64,000 nt of DNA. It comes from Lachnospiraceae bacterium. GTDB lineage: Bacteria; Bacillota; Clostridia; Lachnospirales; Lachnospiraceae. The notes under the pieces were generated by a model. It ran no database searches. It was not told the DNA's origin and saw only the letters and a program-made list of their open reading frames with translations. The stretch is taken from NCBI GenBank assembly GCA_017619615.1, contig JAFZRY010000023.1, positions 17,111 through 81,110 of the forward strand, read 5' to 3'. A program made the translations under genes and the position numbers. Position 1 is the first letter of the stretch. Every line of letters starts with the position of its first letter. Of the stretch, positions 35,250 to 42,375 are shown one piece after another.

Positions 35250-36317
35250 ATGGAACGTAAACATACCAGAATCATCCGGATAGGGAGCCGCTGCATCGGC
35301 GGTCCTTATCCCGTTGCCATCCAGTCGATGTGCAATACGAAAACAGAAAACGTCGAAGCCACCGTCGCCCAGATCCTCGCGCTGGAAAAAGCCGGCTGCG
35401 AGATCATCCGGGTCACCGTGCCGACCGCGGAAGCCGCGCGGGCGCTGCCCGCCATCAAAGAGCGGATCCATATTCCGCTGGTGGCGGACATCCATTTTGA
35501 TTATAAACTGGCCATCGCGGCGATGGACGCCGGCGTGGACAAAGTCCGCATCAACCCGGGCAACATCGGCTCAGCCGGGGGCGTGAAGGCCCTGGTGGAG
35601 CGCGCAGCCCGCGATGACATCCCGCTGCGCGTGGGCGTCAACAGCGGTTCGCTGGAGAAGAAATATATCGAAAAGTACGGCGGCGTCACCGCGGAAGGGC
35701 TGGCGGAAAGCGCGCTGGGCCAGGCCGCGATGATCGAAGCCTTCGGGTACGACAAACTGGTCATCAGCATCAAATCCAGCCGCGTGCCGGCGAGCATCCG
35801 GGCGCACGAGATCATCGCGGAGCGCTGCGATTACCCGCTGCACGTGGGCATCACGGAAGCGGGGACCGTGTACAACGGCACCGTCAAATCCGCCGTGGGG
35901 ATCGGCGCCATTTTGTCCCGCGGCATCGGCGACACCATCCGCGTGTCCCTGACCGGCGACCCGGTCGAGGAAGTGCGGGCGGCGAAGCAGATCTTAACGA
36001 GCCTGGGCCTGCGGAAAGAGGGCATTGAAGTCATTTCCTGCCCGACCTGCGGCCGCACGCAGATCGACCTGATCGCGCTGGCGGAGGCCGTAGAGGTCAT
36101 GGCGGCCCGCTACCCGGACAAAAACCTGACCGTCGCGGTGATGGGCTGCGCGGTGAACGGCCCCGGGGAAGCCCGGGAAGCCGACCTGGGCATCGCCGGC
36201 GGCCGCGGCGAAGGACTGTTATTCAGGAAAGGTGAAATACTCCGGAAACTGCCGGAGAACGAGCTTCTGGGGGGGTTGGAAGCGGAAATACAGAATTGGG
36301 AGGATCCGCATGTTTGA
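35250..36317 (+). CDS. ispG: 4-hydroxy-3-methylbut-2-enyl diphosphate synthase
   Basis: IspG (GcpE) is the iron-sulfur enzyme of the sixth step of the MEP isoprenoid pathway. The 355-residue protein shows the family TIM barrel start with P-Y-P-V-A-I-Q-S-M-C-N-T, H-F-D-Y-K-L-A, R-I-N-P-G-N-I-G, S-V-K-type active loop (here I-S-I-K-S-S) and, in the C-terminal ferredoxin-like part, the cluster cysteines in S-C-P-T-C-G-R and G-C-A-V-N-G-P-G-E-A. Its presence implies a complete MEP pathway, yet dxr is missing from this cluster. It overlaps polC by eight bases. Confidence 0.95.
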   Translation: MERKHTRIIRIGSRCIGGPYPVAIQSMCNTKTENVEATVAQILALEKAGCEIIRVTVPTAEAARALPAIKERIHIPLVADIHFDYKLAIAAMDAGVDKVRINPGNIGSAGGVKALVERAARDDIPLRVGVNSGSLEKKYIEKYGGVTAEGLAESALGQAAMIEAFGYDKLVISIKSSRVPASIRAHEIIAERCDYPLHVGITEAGTVYNGTVKSAVGIGAILSRGIGDTIRVSLTGDPVEEVRAAKQILTSLGLRKEGIEVISCPTCGRTQIDLIALAEAVEVMAARYPDKNLTVAVMGCAVNGPGEAREADLGIAGGRGEGLLFRKGEILRKLPENELLGGLEAEIQNWEDPHV

Positions 36318-39300
36318 CACGTCACAAATGAAACCCCTCTTGGAAGCGATCCCGGACCTCATGACGACGGAAGCCGTCCTGGACCGCGCGGATCAGATCT
36401 ACATTGAAAAAATGCTGATGCCCCGCACGCGGGACCGGCTGAAGATCTATCTGCACGCGCCGTTCATCATTCCCAAGCGGGACATCCTGGCGCTGGAAGC
36501 CGCCATCAAAAAGCAGTACTTCAAAAACAAAAACGTCCGCGTCCAGATCATCGAGCGCTTCCACCTGGAAGGCATGACCGTGCAGGAAGCGTACGAAGCC
36601 TACAAAGACAGTATCCTGCTGGAACTCAAATCCGTCCAGCTGTACGAATACAACCTGCTCCGCCGCGCCTCGCTGGACTTTTCCAGTGAGGACCTTATCA
36701 TGCTCGAAGTGCCGGATCTGTCCGTGCTGGCCGCCCGCAGCGGCGACCTGTCGGACTACCTGAAGCGGATCTTCCGCGACCGTCTGGGCTTCCCCGTGAA
36801 CGTGCGCATGAAATTCAGCGGCGCGCGCGGAAAGAAGACCGCGGCGGACAGCCCGGACGATTCCCTGGTCCTCTCGATCCTGGACCAGGCCATCCGCGCG
36901 GAACAGAGCGCCGAGCCGCAGCCCGAAAAGAAGGCGCCGGCCCGCCCTTACACGCCCAAGCGCGCCCTGCTCTCGCAGGAAGGCAGCTGGGGCCGCGACT
37001 TTGACGGCGACCCGATCCCCCTCTCCGAGATCCAAAGCGAGATGGGCGAAGTCACCGTTCGCGGCGAAGTCCTCTCCGTGGAAAAGCGGCCGCTGCGTAA
37101 CGGCAACACGCTGTTTTCCTTTGTGGTCACCGACTTTACGGACTCCATCCGCGCCAAAGTCTTCGGGAAACCGCACGAAGAAGGACAGCTGGACAGTATC
37201 CTGAAGGAAGGCAACTTCCTGCGCCTGCGCGCGGTCGCCCTGTTCGACCAGTACGACGGCGAAGTGGTCCTGTCCTCCGTCAGCGGCATCAAGCCGGACC
37301 AGAACATGAAAATGACCCGGACCGACAAAGCCCCGGTCAAGCGCGTGGAGCTCCACGCCCACACGCAGATGAGCGAGATGGACGGCCTGACCCACACGGA
37401 CGAGTTCGTCAAGCGCGCCGCCGCCTGGGGCCACAAGGCCGTCGCCATCACGGACCACGGCGTCGTGCAGTCCTTCCCGGACGCCATGCACGCCGCGCAG
37501 GACCTGAAGAAAAAGGGCAAGGATATCAAGATCATCTACGGCTGCGAAGGCTACCTGGTGGACGATACGCCGGGCATGACGGCGGAGGAGATCAAGAAAG
37601 CGCCGTCGTACCACATCATCATTCTGGCGAAGAACGACGTGGGCCGCGTCAACCTGTACCGCCTGGTCTCCGAATCGCACCTGCACTATTTCCAGCGGCG
37701 CCCGCGCATCCCGCGCAGCCTGCTGACCGAATGCCGCGAAGGCCTTATCCTGGGCTCCGCCTGCGAAGCGGGCGAACTGTACCGCGCCCTGCTCCGGGAC
37801 GCGCCGGAGGAGGAACTGCAGCGCATCGTCAATTTTTACGACTACCTGGAAGTCCAGCCGCTGGGCAACAACGCCTACCTGACCCGCACGGGCCGGGACG
37901 GAAAAATCTACACGCAGGAGGACCTGCAGAACTTCGTGCGCCGCATCCTTGAACTCGGCGAACAATACGCGAAGCCAGTCGTCGCCACCTGCGACGTCCA
38001 CTTCCTGGACCCGGAGGACGAGATCTACCGCCGCATCCTGCAGGCGGGCCAGGATTACGCGGACGCGGACTTCCAGCCGCCGCTGTACTTCCGCACCACG
38101 GAGGAGATGTTGGCGGAATTCGATTTCCTGGACTACAACACCGCGAAGCAGATCGTCATCGACAATCCCAACATGATCGCGGACCTGTGCGAAGCCATCT
38201 CCCCGGTGCGGCCGGACAAGTGCCCGCCGCAGATCCCCGGCTCCGAGGAGGAACTGGAGAAGATGTGCTACGATCGCGCGCACGAAATGTACGGCGACCG
38301 CCTGCCCGTCATCGTGGAGGAACGGCTCTCCAAAGAACTGACATCCATCATCGGCAACGGCTACGCGGTCATGTACATCATCGCGCAGCGGCTCGTGAAA
38401 AAGTCGAACGACGAAGGCTACCTGGTGGGGTCCCGGGGCTCCGTGGGCTCCTCGCTGGTCGCCACGTTCAGCGGCATTTCCGAAGTGAACCCGCTGCCGC
38501 CGCACTACCGCTGCCCGCAGTGCCGCCACAGCATTTTCGATAACGAAGAGACCCGCAGAAACGCGGGCGGCGCCGGCGTGGACATGGCGCCGATGAACTG
38601 CCCGGTCTGCGGCGCGCCGATGATCCGCGACGGCTACGATATCCCGTTCGAGACTTTCCTGGGCTTCAAGGGCGACAAGGAGCCGGACATCGACCTGAAC
38701 TTCTCCGGCGAATACCAGGCCAAGGCCCACGAATACACGGAAGTGCTGTTCGGCAAGGGCTGCACGTTCAAGGCGGGCACCATCACGGGCCTGGCGGAGA
38801 AGACCGCGTTCGGCTTCGTGAAGCATTATTTCGAAGATAAAGGCGACCACAAGCGCCGCTGCGAGATCGAGCGCATCGCGAAGGGCCTGGAGGGCACGCG
38901 CCGCTCCACGGGCCAGCATCCCGGCGGGATCGTCGTGATGCCGCGCGGGGAGAACATCTACTCCTTCACGCCGATCCAGTACCCGGCCAACAAGGAGAAG
39001 AGCGGCATCATCACCACCCACTTCGACTACCACTCGATCGACCACAACCTGCTCAAACTCGACATCCTGGGCCACGACGACCCGACCATGATCCGCCGTC
39101 TGGGCGACCTGACCGGCCTGACCATGACGGAGATTCCGATCAACGACGCGCAGGTCCTGGCCCTGTTCAACAGCTGCGACCCGCTGGGCGTGACGCCCGA
39201 GGACCTGGGCGGCTGCGCGTTCGGCACGCTGGGCGTCCCGGAATTCGGCACGGACTTCGCCATGGGTATCCTGAAGGACGCGAAGCCGCAGTCGGTGGCC

Positions 39301-40140
39301 GACCTGGTACGCATCGCCGGCATCGCGCACGGCACGGACGTCTGGAAAGGCAACGTGCAGGACCTGATCGTGAACCAAACGGCCACGCTGAAGGAATCCA
39401 TCTGCACCCGCGACGACATTATGCTCTACCTGATCGGCCAGGGCATGGACCCCGCGCAGTCCTTCAAGATCATGGAAAGCGTCCGCAAAGGCAAAGTCGC
39501 CAAAGGCGCGGAAAGCAACTGGCCTCAGTGGCGCAAAGACATGGAAGAGCACGGCGTGCCGGACTGGTACCTCGGCTCCGCGGAGAAGATCCAGTACATG
39601 TTCCCGAAGGCGCACGCGGCCGCGTACGTGATGATGGCGCTGCGCGTGGCGTACTGCAAGCTGTACTATCCGCTTGAGTATTACACCGCGTATTTCAGTA
39701 TCCGCGCGGACGGCTTCGATTACGAGATGATGGCCCGCGGCCGCGATATCATGGCCCGCAACCTCGCCATGCTCCGCAAGAACCGCGACCGCCTGTCCGA
39801 CACCGAACTGCGCACGCTGCGCGACATGCGGCTGGTGGAAGAGATGTACGCGCGCGGCATAGAATTCATGCCCATCGACGTGTACAAAGCCAAGGCGGAC
39901 CGCTTCCAGATCATCGACGGGAAGATCATGCCGTCCTTCAACAGCATCGCCGGCCTGGGTCTGTCCGCCGCGCAGAGCCTCGAAGAGGCCGCCGCGCAGG
40001 GCCGCTTCCTGTCCCGCGAAGACCTGATCCAGCGCTCGAAGATCAACTCCACGCTGGCGGAAAACATGGCGCGCATGGGCATCCTGGGCGACATGGCCGA
40101 GAGCAACCAGCTGTCCCTGACGGACATCGTGTTAGAGTAA
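36310..40140 (+). CDS. polC: DNA polymerase III PolC, exonuclease domain missing
   Basis: PolC is the replicative polymerase of low-GC Gram-positives. This one has 1276 residues, about 160 fewer than usual. In order I see an N-terminal helical domain (1-200), an OB fold (about 245-330), the PHP domain (about 345-600), a four-cysteine zinc module in the Y-R-C-P-Q-C region, the palm with D793-I-D795 in P-D-I-D-L-N-F-S-G-E-Y, fingers and the C-terminal helix-hairpin domain. In other PolC proteins a DnaQ-like 3'-5' exonuclease sits inside the PHP domain after a V-D-D motif; here V-D-D (417-419) is followed after 14 residues by Y-H (434-435), resuming the PHP. All PHP metal ligands remain: H349, H351, D382, H383, E413, H435, C485, D562, H564. 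ATG 36310 follows GGGAGGATCC. The frame is open throughout. Confidence 0.95.
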   Translation: MFDTSQMKPLLEAIPDLMTTEAVLDRADQIYIEKMLMPRTRDRLKIYLHAPFIIPKRDILALEAAIKKQYFKNKNVRVQIIERFHLEGMTVQEAYEAYKDSILLELKSVQLYEYNLLRRASLDFSSEDLIMLEVPDLSVLAARSGDLSDYLKRIFRDRLGFPVNVRMKFSGARGKKTAADSPDDSLVLSILDQAIRAEQSAEPQPEKKAPARPYTPKRALLSQEGSWGRDFDGDPIPLSEIQSEMGEVTVRGEVLSVEKRPLRNGNTLFSFVVTDFTDSIRAKVFGKPHEEGQLDSILKEGNFLRLRAVALFDQYDGEVVLSSVSGIKPDQNMKMTRTDKAPVKRVELHAHTQMSEMDGLTHTDEFVKRAAAWGHKAVAITDHGVVQSFPDAMHAAQDLKKKGKDIKIIYGCEGYLVDDTPGMTAEEIKKAPSYHIIILAKNDVGRVNLYRLVSESHLHYFQRRPRIPRSLLTECREGLILGSACEAGELYRALLRDAPEEELQRIVNFYDYLEVQPLGNNAYLTRTGRDGKIYTQEDLQNFVRRILELGEQYAKPVVATCDVHFLDPEDEIYRRILQAGQDYADADFQPPLYFRTTEEMLAEFDFLDYNTAKQIVIDNPNMIADLCEAISPVRPDKCPPQIPGSEEELEKMCYDRAHEMYGDRLPVIVEERLSKELTSIIGNGYAVMYIIAQRLVKKSNDEGYLVGSRGSVGSSLVATFSGISEVNPLPPHYRCPQCRHSIFDNEETRRNAGGAGVDMAPMNCPVCGAPMIRDGYDIPFETFLGFKGDKEPDIDLNFSGEYQAKAHEYTEVLFGKGCTFKAGTITGLAEKTAFGFVKHYFEDKGDHKRRCEIERIAKGLEGTRRSTGQHPGGIVVMPRGENIYSFTPIQYPANKEKSGIITTHFDYHSIDHNLLKLDILGHDDPTMIRRLGDLTGLTMTEIPINDAQVLALFNSCDPLGVTPEDLGGCAFGTLGVPEFGTDFAMGILKDAKPQSVADLVRIAGIAHGTDVWKGNVQDLIVNQTATLKESICTRDDIMLYLIGQGMDPAQSFKIMESVRKGKVAKGAESNWPQWRKDMEEHGVPDWYLGSAEKIQYMFPKAHAAAYVMMALRVAYCKLYYPLEYYTAYFSIRADGFDYEMMARGRDIMARNLAMLRKNRDRLSDTELRTLRDMRLVEEMYARGIEFMPIDVYKAKADRFQIIDGKIMPSFNSIAGLGLSAAQSLEEAAAQGRFLSREDLIQRSKINSTLAENMARMGILGDMAESNQLSLTDIVLE

Positions 40141-40167: not shown

Positions 40168-40515
40168 ATGATCAGAAAACGGATCGGACGAATTATCGGA
40201 ATCGTATTGGGCCTTTTGATCCTGTACCTTGTGCTGTGCACGTTCAACGTTTTCCCGATCACGCGGGCCCAGGTGCAGCCGTTCGTCGTGACGCCTTCCG
40301 GCCGGACTTATCTGGTCGTGAACGACGCGCAGCCGGTGGAGGACGTCCTGATCCGGACCCTCCTGATGACGGAGGAGATCGATGCCGGACAGCAGGAGAG
40401 CATGGACGCTTTCCGGGGATACCGCTTCTACCGCGCCCGCTTCACGTCGGACGACCGGTTCATTTACGCGGTGACGCCGGAAGGAAAGATCAGAAAATGC
40501 GAGGCCCGCGATTAG
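40168..40515 (+). CDS. Small membrane protein after polC
   Basis: The 115-residue product has an arginine-rich start, one transmembrane helix (about 9-27) and a mostly stranded outside domain of about 85 residues including F-V-V-T-P-S-G-R-T-Y-L-V-V and F-I-Y-A-V-T-P-E-G-K. No family is recognised. A strong AAAAAGGAGG lies ahead. It is placed 27 bases after polC and 27 before the GH13 gene, so it may be read through from the operon. Confidence 0.65.
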   Translation: MIRKRIGRIIGIVLGLLILYLVLCTFNVFPITRAQVQPFVVTPSGRTYLVVNDAQPVEDVLIRTLLMTEEIDAGQQESMDAFRGYRFYRARFTSDDRFIYAVTPEGKIRKCEARD

Positions 40516-40542
40516 CGCGGCCGCGGGATGACAGGAGGACAC

Positions 40543-42375
40543 ATGCTGACCCTTGACAGTACGATAGGCGAATTATACCGCAGCCCCATCGGGCACGACC
40601 TGGCGGACCGGATCCTGCTGCAGCTCGGCCTGCCGCAGAGCACGCTGACCAACCCGCTGGTCTCGCACATGAAGATCCGTTCCGCGTCCAAACTGGTGCC
40701 CGGAAAGCTCGACCCCGCGCTGTTCGACGCGATCCTGAACCTGGTGAACCGCGAGCCGGAGAACGTGCCCGCGTCCGCCGCGCCGGTCAAGCCCGCGTGG
40801 TGGAAGGAAGCGGTGTTTTACCAGATCTACCCGCGCAGTTTCTGCGATTCCAACGGCGACGGGATCGGGGACATCCCCGGCATCCTTTCGCGCCTGGATT
40901 ATCTGAAGGACCTCGGCGTCGACGCGCTGTGGCTCTCTCCGGTCTACGATTCACCGAACGACGACAACGGCTACGACATCCGCGATTACCGGGCGATCAT
41001 GAAGGAATTCGGCACCATGGAGGACTTCGACCGCCTGCTCGCCGAAGTGCACGCCCGCGGCATGCGCCTGATCATGGACCTCGTTATCAACCACACCTCG
41101 GACGAGCACCCCTGGTTTCAGGAAGCGCTCGCGGACCCGGCCTCGCCCCGCCGCGGCTATTATTTCCTGCGGCCCGGCACGCCGGATGCCTTGCCCAACA
41201 ACTGGGGCAGCTTTTTCTCCGGCCCCGCCTGGCGCTATTTCCCGGAGCAGCAGCTCTGGGGCCTGCACCTGTTCTCGAAGAAGCAGATGGACCTGAACTG
41301 GGAGAACGATGCGCTGCGGCAGGAAGTGCTGGAGATGATCCGCTGGTGGCTGGAAAAAGGCGTCGACGGTTTCCGCATGGACGTCATCAACTACATCTCC
41401 AAGGATCCGGGCCTGCCGGACGGCGATCCCACCGTCACGGAGCTGATCGGCATCAGCGGGATGGAGCACTATGTCTACGGCCCGCGCCTGCACGAGTTCC
41501 TGCAGCAGATCCGCCGCGAGGCGTTCGAGCCGTACGGGGCTTTCTCCGTGGGCGAGGGCCCCGGCCTGGGCATGAACATGAGCCGCATGGTCACGGCGGA
41601 AGAGCGCCGCGAACTGGACATGGTCTTTTCCTTCGATCATCTGGAAACGCCCGGACACGGCCGCCTGGAAGATTATGAATACGACCTGAACTATTACCGC
41701 GACCACATCCTGCAATGGATCCGCGGCTACGGCAATAACTGCCGCATCGCGCTGTTCTTCAACAACCACGACAATCCGCGCATGGTCAGCAAAGTCAGCC
41801 GCGACAGGTCGCTGCACCCGCACATCGCCAAACTCCTGGCCGTCCTGCAGCTCACGCTGCCGGGCACGCCGTTTATTTACCAGGGCGATGAAATGGGCCT
41901 CTCCAACTATCATTTCACGAACCTGGACCAAATCACGGATGTGGAGGCGAAAGGCTTCGTCGCCGAAAACCGCGGCAAACGCAGCGACGCCGACCTCCTG
42001 CACGTCCTCAACGCCGGCAGCCGCGAACACGCCCGCATCCTCCTCCCCGGCGGCGGGCAGCTCCCGCCCTGGCACGCCGGCGTGACCCAGCAGACCCCGG
42101 ACAAAGACGTGGAAGAGTCTTACCGCTTCCTCCTGAAGCTCCGCCGCGAAAGCAAAGTCTTCCCCTACGGGACGTTTGAGCTGATCAGCGACAAAAAGAA
42201 CGCCTTCGTCTACCGCCGCACACTGAATGGCAAGAGCTATGTCATCGAATGCAACCTCGCCGCCGAGCCGCGCAAACCTCTGTACAAGTCGAAAAAGGCT
42301 CGCCTGATCTTCGACTCCCAGCCTCTCCACACCGGAGAACTCGGGCCGTACCACGCGCAGATCTGGGAAGAATAG
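40543..42375 (+). CDS. GH13 alpha-glucosidase with N-terminal helical domain
   Basis: This 610-residue cytoplasmic enzyme hydrolyses alpha-glucosidic bonds in oligosaccharides. The barrel starts near residue 85 with V-F-Y-Q-I-Y-P-R-S-F, a D-S-N-G-D-G-I-G-D calcium loop, D-L-V-I-N-H-T-S-D-E-H, G-F-R-M-D-V-I-N with the nucleophile Asp, V-G-E-G-P-G with the acid/base Glu and N-N-H-D-N-P with the third carboxylate, as in oligo-1,6-glucosidase and trehalose-6-phosphate hydrolase. Ahead of it about 70 residues form a helical domain (T-I-G-E-L-Y-R-S-P-I-G) of the kind found on several clostridial glycosidases. ATG 40543 is chosen because AGGAGG lies between it and the earlier ATG. Confidence 0.9.
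   Translation: MLTLDSTIGELYRSPIGHDLADRILLQLGLPQSTLTNPLVSHMKIRSASKLVPGKLDPALFDAILNLVNREPENVPASAAPVKPAWWKEAVFYQIYPRSFCDSNGDGIGDIPGILSRLDYLKDLGVDALWLSPVYDSPNDDNGYDIRDYRAIMKEFGTMEDFDRLLAEVHARGMRLIMDLVINHTSDEHPWFQEALADPASPRRGYYFLRPGTPDALPNNWGSFFSGPAWRYFPEQQLWGLHLFSKKQMDLNWENDALRQEVLEMIRWWLEKGVDGFRMDVINYISKDPGLPDGDPTVTELIGISGMEHYVYGPRLHEFLQQIRREAFEPYGAFSVGEGPGLGMNMSRMVTAEERRELDMVFSFDHLETPGHGRLEDYEYDLNYYRDHILQWIRGYGNNCRIALFFNNHDNPRMVSKVSRDRSLHPHIAKLLAVLQLTLPGTPFIYQGDEMGLSNYHFTNLDQITDVEAKGFVAENRGKRSDADLLHVLNAGSREHARILLPGGGQLPPWHAGVTQQTPDKDVEESYRFLLKLRRESKVFPYGTFELISDKKNAFVYRRTLNGKSYVIECNLAAEPRKPLYKSKKARLIFDSQPLHTGELGPYHAQIWEE

Follow-up and report, generated by a model that had tools for sequence, protein, structure and literature searches.

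A PolC polymerase without its exonuclease domain

The window, a 64,000-nucleotide stretch of the draft genome of a gut Lachnospiraceae bacterium, encodes a PolC-type DNA polymerase III alpha subunit that lacks the DnaQ-type exonuclease inserted in the PHP domain, a hallmark of PolC though not a universal one. According to the best-supported reading of its sequence, it would be a working polymerase deprived of the DEDDh exonuclease, with a PHP loop back to DnaE length.

The gene is a single intact frame on the forward strand, open as predicted from the ATG at 36310 to a stop codon ending at 40140, and encodes 1276 residues. A gggagg sequence is located just 5′ of this ATG. A longer frame, starting at the GTG at 36232, would add 26 residues and is unnecessary. 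The 3′ end of ispG overlaps the polC start by 8 nt, and the gene order around polC is frr-uppS-cdsA-rseP-ispG. The features are as follows.

35250..36317, + strand: ispG (GcpE), the upstream neighbour (PF04551, 486.9 bits)
36310..40140, + strand: polC, PolC-type DNA polymerase III alpha without exonuclease, 1276 residues (open frame; NCBIfam PolC cut-offs passed)
36982..37314, + strand: OB-fold region, about residues 225–335 (PF01336 at residues 248–313; colinear with 3f2b from residue 238)
37348..38109, + strand: continuous PHP domain, about residues 347–600 (PF02811 at residues 347–510, 111.3 bits; ligands from the alignment)
37549..37611, + strand: junction at the exonuclease site of other PolCs, residues 414–434 (alignment with exonuclease-containing PolCs)
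38251..39555, + strand: palm and fingers, about residues 648–1082 (PF07733, PF17657)
40108..40122, + strand: C-terminal clamp-binding motif QLSLT, instead of QLSLF, residues 1267–1271 (position, comparison with relatives)

Directly 3′ of polC lies a 115-residue ORF (40168–40515, + strand) without Pfam match, which is followed by an alpha-amylase gene (40528–42375).

The assignment to the PolC type relies on the curated NCBIfam cut-offs, which the protein exceeds for both NF001688 (1390.8 bits as compared to 873) and TIGR01405 (1280.8 bits as compared to 1043.45). Pfam recognises the N-terminal domain I, OB, PHP, palm, fingers and HhH_6 domains, the OB match being 0.1 under the cut-off (26.9 bits for 27), and finds no RNase_T match in this protein. 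Pfam and colinearity with the 3f2b structure both show the domain order of a PolC, with OB before PHP followed by palm, fingers and HhH.

PolCs of relatives were then aligned. A contig scan of genomes gave 80 loci, the best 80 of 166 relatives. With 30 class-level loci added and fragments removed, the alignment contained 108 PolCs, 39 without the exonuclease (exo−, including that of the window) and 69 with it (exo+). Rows L003, L004 (the window itself), L044 (frame broken), L096 and L108 (fragments) and L002 (a DnaE1) were dropped before counting. Since L006 to L035 were the top matches to a profile containing the exonuclease, they are exo+ by selection and exo+/exo− proportions are meaningless there.

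From residue 416 to residue 435, the window PolC has 20 residues as compared to 208–218 in the 69 exo+ PolCs. About 192 residues are therefore missing, between PHP ligands E413 and H435. The original prediction of an exonuclease cut out at the domain joints, leaving PHP continuous, is borne out, its estimate of 170–180 missing residues being slightly low. Over the 108 PolCs, the same segment measures 11–24 residues in exo− rows and 208–218 in exo+ rows, with no intermediates. The E413–H435 gap of the window PolC, 21 residues, equals that of DnaE1 from the same genome. Canonical exo+ Lachnospiraceae PolCs (L043, L045) are up to about 64% identical to the window protein after the junction and share its PHP ligands, but are longer by about 192 residues, which contain the DEDDh motifs. 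D793, D795 and D918, which we take to be the catalytic aspartates of PolC, are conserved in 39/39 exo− and 69/69 exo+ rows.

The best match among solved structures is Geobacillus kaustophilus PolC (3f2b, 1053 bits), colinear over residues 238–1270 and lacking the exonuclease at the same loop. The 3f2b construct was however engineered, its N-terminal and exonuclease domains having been removed by design (PMC3656037), whereas the N-terminal domain is present in the window PolC, which also differs by D562 at a position occupied by N in 3f2b. Because the equivalent Staphylococcus PolC construct is reported to polymerise fast, with a kpol of 330 per s (PMC3656037), loss of the exonuclease need not harm synthesis.

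The PHP metal site and proofreading

The nine PHP ligands of the window PolC are exactly those originally listed, H349, H351, D382, H383, E413, H435, C485, D562 and H564, corresponding to the HHDHEHCDH set. They are intact in 43/43 exo− PolCs (39/39 in the alignment, plus later sequences) and were found invariant among 36 exo− PolCs. They are also intact in 68 of the 69 exo+ rows, the remaining row having two unread positions. Because an intact site is common to exo+ PolCs of the same class, it was not acquired with the loss, and the case for a special role of PHP is weakened.

The PHP exonuclease of Mycobacterium tuberculosis DnaE1 is described as using nine such ligands (PMC5636811). The window PolC has nine ligands of the same kinds and, like that enzyme, no inserted DnaQ domain. 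The mycobacterial protein is however a DnaE1 and not a PolC, and its exonuclease activity was measured, whereas that of the window PolC is a prediction from the ligands. The same paper (PMC5636811) places the PolC exonuclease in a loop beside the PHP metal site. The solved Bacilli-type PolCs 3f2b and 9qpc both have N at the position of D562, and for one of these two the paper describes a mutated ligand and a lack of PHP exonuclease activity. Both structures are consistent with exonuclease loss being tolerated only in PolCs with a whole PHP site. The Clostridia set aligned here contains no broken PHP sites and therefore cannot bear on this idea.

PHP proofreading in the window cell is possible and, judging from the ligands, it would be performed by PolC, by DnaE1 or by both. 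The best explanation, to which we give a modest preference, is that of a natural delta-exo PolC whose errors are corrected by PHP sites. The DEDDh exonuclease, housed in the PHP loop in other PolCs, would have been lost in an ancestor of this Lachnospiraceae lineage, and the loop would then have closed to 21 residues, reverting to DnaE length. The polymerase would have stayed functional, single-copy and replicative. Trimming of mismatched primer strands would fall to the metal-dependent PHP site of PolC and/or DnaE1, with MutS acting behind it. A MutS is present in the window genome (1055.4 bits).

Change in PHP relative to palm-fingers, estimated from non-independent pairs, gave a mixed result. 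The ratio was 1.01 in the window clade as compared to 1.42 in exo+ Lachnospiraceae. Slower PHP change after exonuclease loss was not repeated in the other exo− groups compared, with ratios of 1.37 in the Selenomonad group as compared to 1.12 in mixed exo+ Clostridia, and of 1.16 as compared to 1.20 for the Oscillospiraceae group.

DnaE1 and the clamp-binding motif of PolC

The search for a stand-alone DnaE, suggested together with the original prediction, found a DnaE1 of 1170 residues in the window genome, with intact PHP ligands and the clamp motif QMSLF. A PolC without insertion in a genome that encodes DnaE1 corresponds to the exo-less PolC variant. The DnaE1 PHP residues are HHDHEHCDH in 26/26 genomes compared. 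In the window clade, a fully supported group of 10 rows in the tree described below, DnaE1 carries Q[ML]SLF in 9/10 genomes, the sequence of the tenth (G245) being cut before the motif.

The motif of PolC has changed. In the window, QLSLT keeps four of the five QLSLF positions and loses the aromatic residue. The PolCs of the clade have QLSLT, QLSLM, QLSLL, QMSLL, QLSLE or QLSFE, so that T, M, L or E takes the fifth position, which is aromatic in none of the ten. An aromatic fifth residue is found in 24/30 exo+ Lachnospiraceae, 28/33 other exo− and 40/41 other exo+ rows. Four of the five other exo− rows without it are cut or end differently.

Such a motif change fits a reduced role of PolC. The main replicase may be DnaE1, whose own PHP site is intact, an option that the original prediction did not consider. 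PolC would then have been demoted to short or special synthesis while DnaE1 does the bulk of replication, making the proofreading domain dispensable. The constancy of the DnaE1 PHP site and clamp motif, together with the altered PolC motif throughout the clade, argues for this explanation, and this had already been suggested by Timinskas et al. for systems combining PolC and DnaE1 (PMC3919608). Contact between PolC and the clamp is reported as essential in B. subtilis, yet an approximately 20-fold weakening is tolerated (PMC12309361). However, PolC keeps its catalytic residues, and its evolution, measured against that of DnaE1, is no quicker than in exo+ relatives: the median PolC/DnaE1 distance ratio was 0.718 in the window clade (24 pairs) as compared to 0.775 in exo+ Lachnospiraceae (77 pairs). 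These ratios show no relaxed selection on PolC in the clade. Most other exo− PolCs, 28/33 as given above, also keep the aromatic residue. Moreover, G366, which joins the window clade as sister (support 99), is exo− with QMSLF, showing that within this lineage the clamp-motif change came after the exonuclease loss. Over the tree, the two changes went the same way in 0/7 independent pairs, rows L061, L063, L073, L097 and L099 (cut or unclear) being left out. We consider demotion of PolC rather unlikely.

Separate exonucleases

The original prediction had also considered a separate exonuclease. Its structural reading stands, but this option finds no support in the window genome. The only PF00929 match there is a distant 365-residue protein, which we take to resemble KapD and which is about 25% identical to a PolC exonuclease. 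A PolC exonuclease domain query gave no match in the window genome nor in 6/9 relatives of the clade, whose PF00929 protein is likewise only about 25% identical. An escaped exonuclease gene was therefore not found in this 90.8% complete draft by either query.

A separate DnaQ-type exonuclease acting in trans as the proofreader has some support elsewhere. Three of the ten window-clade genomes (G247, G250 and G251) carry a separate DnaQ, in frames of 205–216 residues and 37–40% identical to a PolC exonuclease, exo− G445 has one too, and 31/39 exo− genomes have some PF00929 protein. Against it, 8/39 exo− genomes have no PF00929 match, and such proteins are also common in exo+ genomes, 24/39 of which have more than one match where PolC accounts for one; among all these genomes, completeness is known for that of the window alone. 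An additional short, weak and partial PF00929 match in G246 was not confirmed by the PolC exonuclease query. We consider replacement in trans improbable.

Distribution of exonuclease loss

Two surveys show how widely exo− PolCs occur; the loci examined individually from them, L208–L214 and L227, are a part of the whole. Among the matches listed for 150 genomes representing one Lachnospiraceae genus each, the TIGR01405 alignment leaves out the exonuclease part in four genomes with uncut frames (G000, G357, G445 and G366). The same holds for a second, shorter PolC in G392, a genome that also has an exo+ copy, and the domain is decayed in G352. For at least four genomes (G358, G401, G426 and G447), the rows gave no basis for a judgement. 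The second copy of G392 (L211) is a 1059-residue frame beside the full exo+ PolC L214 of the same genome.

From 54 sampled Clostridia genomes, 51 had a PolC over the cut-off, 43 being exo+, seven exo− (G000, G001, G005, G011, G035, G039 and G042) and one carrying another insert (G050). This exo− share is close to the 16% given by Timinskas et al. 2013 for PolC + DnaE1 systems (PMC3919608). The G050 protein (L227, minus strand) has a PolC frame of 1646 residues. In place of the exonuclease it carries an insert of 308 residues, in which neither Pfam nor profile comparison (probability 0.7%) recognised an exonuclease.

On a tree of the region after the junction (108 rows), presence or absence of the exonuclease requires seven changes, at least six being forced by branches with support of at least 95. 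With six more Lachnospiraceae (114 rows), nine changes are required, at least eight of them forced by supported branches. The trees were quick IQ-TREE runs with SH-aLRT support only, and such counts do not tell gain from loss.

The pattern is best read as repeated losses, which would follow from the common position, single family and vertical pattern of the exonuclease, the rooting of the tree being assumed neither way. That exo− PolC was original and the exonuclease repeatedly gained is permitted by the change counts. It is however highly improbable: the exonuclease occupies the same place in the exo+ rows, belongs to one family with DEDDh present in 70/70 (the 69 rows plus L214), and its distances track those of the core (Spearman 0.51; 0/500 permutations as high). 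In addition, a relative with a decayed exonuclease exists. In L212, from G352 (estimated contamination 5%), a 181-residue stretch replaces the usual 212 at the exonuclease position. It is homologous to the PolC exonuclease (profile comparison, probability 98.4%, E 4.6e-15) and retains in the profile alignment one of the five DEDDh residues, the middle D, with PHP ligands intact. L212 groups with exo− G357 and G445 (support 97), and its shrunken exonuclease looks like decay before removal.

Locally, the loss is seen in nine other public assemblies (L036–L042, L052 and L084) that share the same 20-residue segment. The nearest relative, L037, a Lachnospiraceae from goat omasum, is 97% identical. 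The window genome is a 1.98 Mb draft in 34 contigs, 90.8% complete, in which searches found one PolC, one DnaE1, one weak PolC-palm-like protein and no second PolC; another may lie in the missing tenth. Although the draft state of the genome leaves some room for a domain missing by misassembly or for a dispensable second copy, the shared junction in nine assemblies, which makes misassembly very unlikely, the position of polC in the frr-uppS-cdsA-rseP-ispG order and the absence of any further PolC in the searches led us to set both aside as barely credible.

The PolC-palm-like protein (427 residues, L117:2302–3582, + strand, contig C29) is a distant relative of PolC palm-fingers (20% identity, E 3e-11), without PHP and with the PolC aspartates invisible in the alignment. 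Its matches outside PolC among 80 Lachnospiraceae genomes are limited to a handful of further short frames (289, 495 and 316 residues).

Discussion

PolCs of this kind are already known. Timinskas et al. 2013 (PMC3919608) report the insertion to be absent from 6% of PolCs, which belong to Clostridia and Negativicutes apart from one extra Thermotogae copy. They note that the PHP sites are conserved and still class such proteins as PolC. The window protein resembles them in its NTD, OB, PHP, Pol3 and HhH domains without exonuclease, in its clostridial origin and in the presence of DnaE1 in the same genome. Because such proteins were described as early as 2013, a claim of novelty is weakened. That survey gives class-level counts, to which the present work adds this clade, its altered clamp motif, the recurrence of the loss and a decayed intermediate. 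A literature search, thin on subscription journals, found no papers on these four points, and nothing more on exo-less PolCs than the two surveys cited here.

A 2026 survey describes Clostridia as mostly having three active proofreaders and states that in Pol III alpha subunits it is PHP, not the DnaQ proofreader, that is inactivated (PMC12926913). To the rule that DnaQ is not inactivated, as worded there, L212 provides at least one exception.

Returning to the delta-exo PolC proofread by PHP sites, a wider proposal can be made tentatively. The whole lineage may lack a DEDDh proofreader at the fork, PolC and DnaE1 editing by PHP alone. Losses would have been possible in Clostridia since PHP was never inactivated there, unlike in Bacilli, and in the window clade the hold of PolC on the clamp would have loosened, changing the division of labour between replicases.

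In exo+ PolCs, the adjoining exonuclease masks any proofreading by an intact PHP site. Natural PolCs that have lost this exonuclease several times, together with their close exo+ relatives, offer paired tests of PHP proofreading, and the same pairs test the accuracy of replication without a DEDDh exonuclease.
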